This document shows, one piece after another, positions 15,288 through 16,586 of a stretch of DNA of 64,000 nucleotides. The stretch comes from Curtobacterium aurantiacum (GTDB lineage: Bacteria > Actinomycetota > Actinomycetes > Actinomycetales > Microbacteriaceae): assembly GCF_018598555.1 (NCBI RefSeq), contig NZ_JAHEWN010000010.1:62001-126000 (forward strand), in the 5' to 3' direction. The stretch's first letter is position 1; each line of letters begins with the position of its first letter. The position numbers and the translations under genes are program-made. The notes under the pieces are model-generated. The model saw only the letters and a list, made by a program, of their open reading frames with translations. It did not search any database and was not told the origin of the DNA.

Positions 15288-16340
15288 TCAGTCCGCCACG
15301 GGCGCGGAGATGTCCCAGACGGTGGTCTCCTCGTACTGCTCGGACCAGCCGCGGCGCATCCGGGCGACCGCACGGTCGAACGCGTCGACGACGTCGGTGT
15401 CCGGGGTCAGGAGCGCCTGCAGACGGATGCCGTCGTAGAGGGCGAGGAGCTGCTGCGCCCCGCGGATCGGGTCCATCGTCGCGGGCTCCCGGCCGGCCCG
15501 GACGTCCTCCTGCAGCGCGGTGCGGACGGTCTCGCGGAACTGCAGGTACGCCGACCGGTAGTAGTCGGCACCGTCCGTCGACGGGTCGGTCGAGATCGCG
15601 AGCGTCGCGGCGATCAGCCGCATGAGGGACGGGTCCTCGGCGTGGGCGGAGAGCAGCGCGTGCAGGAACGCCACCGTGCCCTTCTCGCCGGCGAGCGGCA
15701 GCAGCGGTGCCGACACCGCGCGGGTCCACCGCATCACGGCGGCGGCCAGCAGCGCGTGTTCGGAGGGGAACAGCTCGAGGATCTCGGCAGGGCGCATCCC
15801 CGACCGCGACGCGACACCGTCGAGTGAGAAGCGCGACAGGCCCCCGTCGTGGATGACCGCGATCGCACCGTTGATCGCCCGGGTGCGCGGGACCTCCTCG
15901 TCCGCGGCGTTCTGGTTCGTCAGCGGGGCCAGCGGGTGTTTCCGGAACCAGTCCAGCAGTGCGCGGGCCCGGGATGCGCCGAACGCCGAATCGGTCGGGC
16001 GACCTGCGCTGAACAGGTCGCTGAACCCCGGCACGTCGTGCATCAGCGGGTCGAGCGACTGGAACGCCATCGACCAGTCCGGGAACGAGCGCTGGGTGAT
16101 CGGTTCGTCGAGCAACACCCGCACGTTCGTGTGCCGCGGATCGGCCCGGACCTGCTCGAAGCGCTGCCGGACGACGTCGTCCTCACCCTCGATGATCCCG
16201 ATGCAGTTGTCGTCGCGGTGCGCGAGCATGCCCGTGACGCCGAGTCGTGTGTTCTTCTCGCGGCCGACCGCCAGGATCTGGGCGAGCTCGGAATCCGTGA
16301 TCGGACGGGTCTGGGTACTGGTGTAGACGAGCGATCGCAT
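15288..16340 (-). CDS. BLUF photoreceptor domain fused to a TetR-type regulator
   Basis: A 350-aa protein joining two modules. Residues 1-95 are a BLUF flavin domain: Tyr6 (LVYTS), Asn30 (REKNTRLGVTGML), Glu51 (IIEG), Trp89 and Met91 (FPDWSMAF). These spacings match PixD and AppA exactly (24, 18 and 41 residues), which makes position 48 the equivalent of the photoactive Gln; here it is Gly (codon GGG). Residues about 153-203 are a TetR helix-turn-helix (TRAINGAIAVIHDGGLSRFS..GVASRSGM), followed by a TetR ligand domain to residue 345. It is expected to bind DNA as a dimer, with the BLUF part as a light or redox input. Whether it still responds to light is uncertain without the Gln. Confidence 0.85.
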   Translation of the reverse strand: MRSLVYTSTQTRPITDSELAQILAVGREKNTRLGVTGMLAHRDDNCIGIIEGEDDVVRQRFEQVRADPRHTNVRVLLDEPITQRSFPDWSMAFQSLDPLMHDVPGFSDLFSAGRPTDSAFGASRARALLDWFRKHPLAPLTNQNAADEEVPRTRAINGAIAVIHDGGLSRFSLDGVASRSGMRPAEILELFPSEHALLAAAVMRWTRAVSAPLLPLAGEKGTVAFLHALLSAHAEDPSLMRLIAATLAISTDPSTDGADYYRSAYLQFRETVRTALQEDVRAGREPATMDPIRGAQQLLALYDGIRLQALLTPDTDVVDAFDRAVARMRRGWSEQYEETTVWDISAPVAD

Positions 16341-16586
16341 CGTTCTGCTTCCTGGTCGGACGGTCCACCGGTGGGAGGGAGGTGCCGCCGTGTCGAACCC
16401 GAATCGACGCGACGGCACCTCGTGATCACCGTAACCAGCGGCGACCACCTTCACTGCGACGCGAGACGGTCCGTGGCTGCTCGGCACCCGGAGGATGCCG
16501 ACCTCTGAATGGAACCATCCCGGGCATGATCAGCGGTACCCCCACAACGGGGAACGCACGTTCTCCGGATGGGTACCGCGGTGGCG

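Follow-up and report, generated by a model that had tools for sequence, protein, structure and literature searches.

Introduction

The window analysed here, a stretch of 64,000 nucleotides from Curtobacterium aurantiacum, contains a single gene that joins a BLUF flavin domain to a TetR-type regulator, and in which glycine occupies the place of the photocycle glutamine. The question raised by this locus is what a BLUF domain without this glutamine does in front of a DNA-binding-type protein. The role of the glutamine is the long-debated centre of the BLUF photocycle.

In the BLUF proteins described so far, the photocycle is carried by a Tyr-Gln pair (PMC4844311), the Gln and an Asn contact the flavin C4=O (PMC5899715), and removal of the Gln prevents formation of the signalling state (PMC3915823). 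The red shift usual for BLUF proteins amounts to about 15 nm (PMC3915823). AppA and YcgF act on separate repressors (PMC4844311), whereas here a TetR part is fused to the sensor domain. A 2014 survey defined BLUF sequences by a pattern ending in the photocycle Gln and dropped sequences lacking functional residues from its logo (PMC4844311), so that Gln-less BLUF proteins would be missed there by design. The BLUF-TetR architecture itself has been published before: WP_058726129.1, a Curtobacterium luteum protein of 335 aa, appears as “BLUF+AcrR (regulation of antibiotic resistance)” in a table that PMC8508746 took from Kaushik et al. 2019. This entry has the same architecture and comes from the same genus as the window fusion and, in the available part of PMC8508746, is given with a predicted function only, with no characterisation and no remark on the missing Gln. 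Judged by its length, which equals that of the C. luteum NS184 fusion, it is probably one of the copies with Phe at position 6 described below. The available parts of PMC3320616, PMC9614035, and PMC9020721 show no TetR-BLUF fusion protein. The statement of the first-pass annotation that no characterised TetR-BLUF repressor was known still stands within the open-licence PMC literature, as far as its texts were available, although the architecture has been listed.

Results

Domain make-up of the fusion protein

Translation of positions 15288-16340 on the minus strand gave one uninterrupted reading frame of 350 amino acids, and both the translation and Pfam confirmed that a BLUF domain and a TetR-type regulator share this single frame (Table 1). 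The BLUF fold was recognised by a Pfam score above the cut-off and by Foldseek matches to 1x0p, 1yrx, and 2hfo. An AlphaFold (AF2) model built from 42 homologues (mean pLDDT 75, pTM 0.54, with pLDDT < 50 at residues 91-99, 136-149, and 334-350) placed a BLUF fold ahead of nine TetR-type helices. In compact Foldseek matches, the model agreed with the BLUF domains of Tll0078, AppA, and Slr1694 at 1.5-1.8 A over 90 columns, and a looser match was obtained with the TetR regulator TtgR (2xdn_B, E 4e-6, rmsd 6.4 over 199 columns).

The gene had been described as encoding a “complete TetR repressor”. The fold part of this description agrees with the TetR_C_6 domain, the nine helices of the model and the TtgR match, while the helix-turn-helix (HTH) was only a weak Pfam match, scoring 17.1 against the TetR_N cut-off of 24. 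A HTH below the cut-off is common to three of the four stand-alone TetR relatives tested, with TetR_N scores of 14.0 (L105), 20.3 (L106), and 25.5 (L107), and no TetR_N row for L255. After the recognition helix, the window protein reads FPSEH where most TetR-subfamily relatives read have FP(S/T)WD. The C. aurantiacum genome encodes five clear members of the subfamily to which the TetR half belongs, besides a sixth match that is weak. The closest stand-alone member (L105, G000 contig 22) is 40% identical to the window fusion; like other regulators with the BetI-like C-terminal type (TetR_C_6), it shares the C-terminal domain with the fusion, together with a similar upstream repeat, and differs from it in that the fusion carries a BLUF domain ahead of a HTH that falls below the Pfam cut-off.

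Table 1. Features of the BLUF-TetR fusion locus in the window (positions of the 64,000-nucleotide stretch).
Feature	Position	Strand	Remarks
BLUF-TetR fusion gene	15288..16340	-	Translation 350 aa; full-length homologues
TetR_C_6 regulatory/dimer domain, residues 224-319	15384..15671	-	PF13977, 35.9 bits (cut-off 27)
TetR_N helix-turn-helix, residues 156-201	15738..15875	-	PF00440, 17.1 bits (below cut-off 24); helices in model
BLUF domain, residues 2-92	16065..16337	-	PF04940, 93.2 bits (cut-off 25)
Gly48 codon GGG, position of PixD Gln50 / AppA Gln63	16197..16199	-	Gapless alignments; Gly in 61/61 fusions
Cys46 codon TGC	16203..16205	-	Phe in 48/48 stand-alone BLUF domains read
Asn30 codon, position of PixD Asn32	16251..16253	-	Flavin C4=O contact in PixD (PMC5899715)
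Tyr6 codon	16323..16325	-	Photocycle tyrosine, kept
Candidate operator, inverted repeat GGGGAACG-CA-CGTTCTCC	16549..16566	.	Core starts 223 bp upstream of start codon

Position 48 and the flavin pocket

Alignments of the window protein by phmmer to the solved BLUF chains 2byc, 5x4t, 5x4u, 4yus, and 9f1w were gap-free through the segment CIGIIEG, and residue 48 therefore faces the Gln of these chains. The spacing of Tyr6, Asn30, residue 48, Trp89, and Met91 corresponds to 8-32-50-91-93 of PixD (numbering from the first-pass annotation), which bears out that the four conserved residues stand at PixD spacing; the codon and the gap-free alignments likewise uphold the proposed exchange of Gln for Gly. 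The window protein thus has the Tyr of the reactive Tyr-Gln pair and lacks its partner, and no alternative Gln was found at the BLUF active site in the alignments to BLUF relatives and solved chains. Compared with the photoreceptors PixD/Slr1694, AppA, BlsA, and BlrB, the fusion has the same fold, the same Tyr/Asn/Trp/Met spacing and the same Pfam family (PF04940), and differs from them in the Gly in place of Gln, in a Cys in place of the neighbouring Phe and in the attached TetR-type regulator.

The loci read contained 173 ORF matches, which reduced to 110 distinct BLUF domains: 61 fusions (more than 280 residues from the start of the BLUF domain), 48 stand-alone domains, and one BLUF-cyclase (L209). 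Tabulation of residue 48, which the first-pass annotation had called for, gave Gly in all 61 fusion domains and Gln in all 48 stand-alone domains, which are a subset of the BLUF matches in the genus. Two of these 48 lack an aligned residue at position 6, and one lacks it at position 91; L209 carries Gln too but is not counted among them. Such uniformity ruled out a chance match or a sequencing error at Gly48. The Gly codons of the fusions were GGG (30), GGC (28), GGT (2), and GGA (1); hence it is the residue and not the codon that is conserved, and Gly48 is held by selection.

Seven pocket residues (Tyr6, Asn30, Cys46, Arg69, His70, Trp89, and Met91) were invariant in 51 of the 61 fusion domains, which argues for a kept ligand pocket. 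In the remaining ten, Phe replaces Tyr6 and Cys46 has become Val (seven copies) or Ala (three copies); Arg69 is kept in three of these, His70 in none, Trp89 in nine, and Met91 in four. With Phe6 in these ten copies, and Cys46 gone from every one of them, Tyr/Gln photochemistry is dispensable in the family. Gly48 is retained even in copies that have lost Tyr6, Cys46, and His70; it therefore seems to have a function shared by all fusion copies, most simply that of holding the pocket and the interface between the domains in a single state.

That Tyr6 and Cys46 are either both present (51 domains) or both absent (10 domains), as if the two worked together, is the best hint of continued flavin chemistry in the intact pockets. 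According to one explanation, the fusion would still respond to light: a flavin excited by blue light would take an electron from Tyr6 or Cys46, and a longer-lived semiquinone or thiol product would alter DNA binding. We regard this as possible, though on the unlikely side. It agrees with the invariance of Tyr6, Asn30, Cys46, Trp89, and Met91 in the 51 domains and with a nanosecond neutral semiquinone in Slr1694 Q50A (unpublished data cited in PMC3915823). LOV receptors without Gln, both natural and engineered (PMC9098866), or without Cys after mutation (PMC4682037) still signal, and they are likewise flavin sensors without a residue long held essential; they have, however, another fold and another photochemistry and are reported still to be light receptors. 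On the other hand, no BLUF protein with such chemistry was found in the open-licence PMC literature, as far as its texts were available, and ten of the 61 fusions lack both Tyr and Cys and are nevertheless kept, seven of them overlapping a phosphatase gene.

Because Tyr6 and Cys46 are present or absent together, a bolder form of this explanation was also considered. Here the Gln-free pocket, formed by Tyr6, the flavin and Cys46, with Gly48 opening a cavity, would run a photochemistry not known for BLUF domains (long-lived flavin photoreduction or a flavin-thiol product) and directly switch DNA binding by its own TetR part, making the fusion a one-protein blue-light repressor of Curtobacterium that in some copies would be coupled to PP2C/sigma stress signalling and that is also carried on plasmids. 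We consider it unlikely.

Distribution of the fusion family

Full-length homologues of the fusion occur in at least 45 of the 66 genomes of the genus, taken to be Curtobacterium from their matching contigs, with 43-97% identity and two to five copies in some; this count includes G062, with one truncated copy, and G059, whose copies are partly cut by contig ends. Broken or partial fusion copies were seen at L085 (G062) and L097 (G060). The named records of 41 fusion loci belong to Curtobacterium or to “Microbacteriaceae bacterium” isolates. No fusion outside Curtobacterium was among the matches listed for 398 genomes of the family (85 genera), and none outside Microbacteriaceae was listed for 396 genomes of the phylum, with at most five candidates scored per genome. 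Loss of the Gln is, on the sequences compared, a clade-wide and selected feature of the Curtobacterium fusion family and not an oddity of a single protein.

Among plasmid records, eight matched the query over 80% or more of its length at a single place: six from C. flaccumfaciens, one from another Curtobacterium and one from Frigoribacterium sp. NBH87, in which the RefSeq gene start lies too late and cuts the BLUF part off the annotation. The fusion family is therefore also plasmid-borne and present in two genera. Tyr6, Asn30, Cys46, Gly48, Trp89, and Met91 were all present in the three plasmid copies checked, that of Frigoribacterium included. The Frigoribacterium copy, from a soil isolate, lies at L261 4001-5059. 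A phage origin was rejected, as 50,697 phage records gave two weak matches to the BLUF part only.

All 45 fusion-bearing genomes contain at least two further BLUF matches. This would fit an explanation in which the BLUF part now acts only as a protein-protein or structural module, for instance in mixed oligomers with one of the short Gln-BLUF proteins of the same cell, which would provide the light signal in trans, and the loss of pocket residues in the Phe6 copies points the same way, as does the reported signalling of PixD via oligomers (PMC5899715). Of the 21 genomes for which no fusion was listed, however, at least 19 have BLUF matches as well, so that co-occurrence is weak evidence, and the pocket residues are conserved in 51 of the 61 fusions. 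We hold this explanation to be improbable.

Selection and origin

In 31 close homologues, the median dN/dS was 0.19 for the BLUF part, 0.26 for the linker, 0.35 for the HTH, and 0.20 for TetR_C, and the BLUF part of the fusions is, by this measure, under purifying selection. In five Phe6 rows (L175-L179) the values were 0.32, 0.27, 0.43, and 0.28, respectively; BLUF at 0.32 against TetR_C at 0.28 indicates that the BLUF part is less constrained in these copies. The figures bear on whether the domain is a decaying, functionless relic. The loss of the key photocycle residue and the broken or partial copies mentioned above would suit a relic, but the BLUF dN/dS of the close homologues, lower than that of the HTH, and the conservation of Gly48 through synonymous codons speak against it, and we judge decay to be very improbable.

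A tree of 111 BLUF domains, built on few columns with midpoint rooting and a rough, unsettled bootstrap, placed the fusions in one group (support 100/99), next to the stand-alone Gln-BLUF of G042/G043 (support 94/79). The fused domains form one clade, which makes a single loss of the Gln probable; the simplest reading of the tree puts this loss at or close to the fusion event. The tail of the G042/G043 protein, SRGRALVEWFRKRP, resembles the fusion linker SRARALLDWFRKHP. Tyr6 may have been lost once or twice after the fusion; the second tree, on Tyr6 loss, included one outgroup row chosen in error (SA_L087_6951), whose branch is very long.

Other arrangements of BLUF and TetR genes were also observed. 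In G042/G043 (L107 4037-5998, L109), a subfamily TetR gene, a sigma-factor-like gene on the opposite strand and a stand-alone Gln-BLUF gene follow one another, an order that resembles the fusion theme with its parts on separate genes. C. aurantiacum itself has a second association of BLUF and TetR genes (L003/L004, G000 contig 11, about 208.8-210.4 kb), where stand-alone BLUF genes of the Gln type lie on both sides of a TetR-like gene; the latter is of another kind, and its HTH looks canonical. At L171, L173, and L174 (and L086-L088), in the Phe6 group, the fusion stands in tandem with a second, stand-alone TetR gene from the same subfamily, which lies behind it.

A candidate operator upstream of the fusion gene

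The first-pass annotation had found no operator nearby. This was not upheld: a conserved inverted repeat lies upstream of the gene (Table 1), and it may be the operator of the fusion. Its core, GAACG-NN-CGTTC, stands upstream of the window gene and of L141-L145, where the arms are kept and the two central bases vary. The core was thus present in five of the six closest fusion relatives scanned, and it was absent upstream of L146 and of the other 35 fusion loci scanned; no single operator common to all fusions was found in this upstream scan. Within the window the exact core occurs once, and with one mismatch two sites were counted against 4.05 expected, that is, no enrichment.

In the C. aurantiacum genome, the extended pattern with up to two mismatches gave 14 sites, compared with one for the reversed pattern, and the only exact site was that at 16549-16566. 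A site with one mismatch precedes the closest stand-alone TetR gene (L105) by 46 bp. Among 21 stand-alone TetR genes examined, the exact core was found at -60 in six, namely L105 and five of 19 relatives of the same type (L241-L244, and L252 with an identity of 73%), and with one mismatch at -60 in L253, while the others had no core. Five of the 14 genome sites fall inside genes, and others lie at an unrelated TetR/hydrolase pair and at an OsmC gene, so that the repeat may be a general TetR-type site. The absence of the core at L146 and in other fusion clades, the lack of enrichment in the window and the genic or unrelated sites in the genome count against its role as operator.

We take the core, read as GAAC-N4-GTTC, to resemble an SOS box. 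Its identity as a LexA box is nevertheless disfavoured, as the flanks differ and the neighbours of the genome sites were not recognised as SOS genes.

Further repeat copies and upstream motifs were noted. Two copies of GAACG-NN-CGTTC, 36 bp apart, lie at L224 (3965-4018, G000 contig 3) between a divergent TetR-like gene and an alpha/beta-hydrolase-like gene. At L227 (3001; G000 contig 11, 324699), a copy with two mismatches stands 154 bp upstream of a gene for a membrane protein, presumably PnuC-like, which is followed by another subfamily TetR gene. In many other fusions of the Tyr6 type (L147-L180), the 110 bp just before the gene contain, by eye, a recurring GGGGTTG together with TTCACTCG or TTGACTCG, which possibly represents a shared promoter type.

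Gene neighbours and linkage to PP2C phosphatases

The neighbours of the window gene are a convergent GNAT acetyltransferase gene, a gene for a small, apparently membrane-located protein to which Pfam gave no match, and an MFS transporter gene. No phosphatase gene lies beside it, and the phosphatase genes of this genome, three SpoIIE/PP2C genes above the Pfam cut-off and one match below it, are on other contigs. One of these SpoIIE/PP2C genes is convergent with the closest stand-alone TetR gene (L105), and the same TetR-phosphatase pairing was seen from coordinates in six other genomes (G006, G007, G015, G046, G055, and G056). We take the SpoIIE/PP2C phosphatases here to be RsbU-like.

Fusion genes themselves adjoin such phosphatases in several relatives. 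A SpoIIE gene was found in the flanks of eight of 41 fusion loci (L150, L168, L169, and L175-L179), and in all seven of the Phe6 loci L089-L095, five of which are the same loci as L175-L179, the ATG of the fusion overlaps the phosphatase stop (ATGA). At the remaining three Phe6 loci (L086-L088), no SpoIIE gene was present in the stretch examined. In the group of fusions with 56% identity, the fusion and phosphatase genes are divergent. The phosphatase genes adjacent to fusions belong to PF07228, and one such locus, on plasmid NZ_CP126261, also has a sigma-70-family gene: its annotation names the phosphatase, then the sigma-70-family gene that lies behind it, and labels the fusion “BLUF domain-containing protein”. 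The arrangement resembles SpoIIE/PP2C phosphatase and sigma-factor modules, from which the fusion differs in being a DNA-binding-type protein and the window copy in having no such neighbour. The linkage to a PP2C/SpoIIE gene suggests that the fusion probably feeds a phosphatase/sigma-factor stress circuit in these paralogues. The first-pass annotation had seen no clear target gene near the window copy; in relatives, PP2C-phosphatase neighbours do exist.

The region between the divergent phosphatase and fusion genes contains an 11-9-11 inverted repeat, which is perfect in L168 (core from 4700) and L263 (4724) and has one mismatch in L169. As a general operator it was rejected, with no match within two mismatches in the 64-kb window. 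The C. aurantiacum genome has eight sites with up to three mismatches, compared with one for the reversed pattern, and none with fewer than two. The best of these (contig 31, 86486-86514, two mismatches) lies downstream of another TetR gene of the subfamily, at a distance of about 390 bp.

Discussion

The reading we favour, tentatively and at somewhat less than an even chance, is that the fusion is a TetR-type regulator whose BLUF module, lacking the Gln photocycle, acts as a light-independent flavin module, either pre-switched or redox-responsive. The protein would be a one-component transcription regulator in which a TetR-type DNA-binding dimer carries an N-terminal BLUF module. In copies with Tyr6 and Cys46, the window copy included, the BLUF fold would still bind flavin, and the Gln-less pocket would rest in a fixed “pre-switched” arrangement, by analogy with reports on model BLUF proteins whose Gln was mutated. 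The geometry of the TetR dimer would then depend on whether flavin is bound or on its redox state, and not on blue light. The TetR part is predicted to bind the observed GGGGAACG-NN-CGTTCTCC site upstream of its own gene, a type of site that the fusion appears to share with the stand-alone TetR paralogue, and in paralogues with the observed phosphatase linkage its output may reach the stress circuit proposed above. The earlier proposal that a canonical BLUF photocycle is unlikely without the Gln is in line with the effect of Gln removal reported in PMC3915823.

Several observations count against this light-independent reading. Tyr6, Trp89, and Met91 do not vary among the 51 Tyr6 copies, a degree of conservation beyond what a light-blind module would seem to need. 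BlsA Q51A was insoluble, and its authors tie these residues to stability and flavin binding (PMC6695109); a Gln-less BLUF domain may therefore bind flavin poorly. The BLUF part of L175-L179 evolves no slower than TetR_C. The lack of a phosphatase gene beside the window copy also counts here. LOV receptors that lack their Gln still signal (PMC9098866).

The fusions make up a family that occurs in nature and has no fewer than 61 distinct domains. In these, the Gln was replaced under selection, the rest of the pocket was for the most part retained, and a DNA-binding-type output was attached. The family is thus a ready natural test of BLUF function without Gln, and the fusion is possibly a direct flavin-controlled repressor. 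In this family, nature seems to have kept a sensor domain while the cue that it senses changed.
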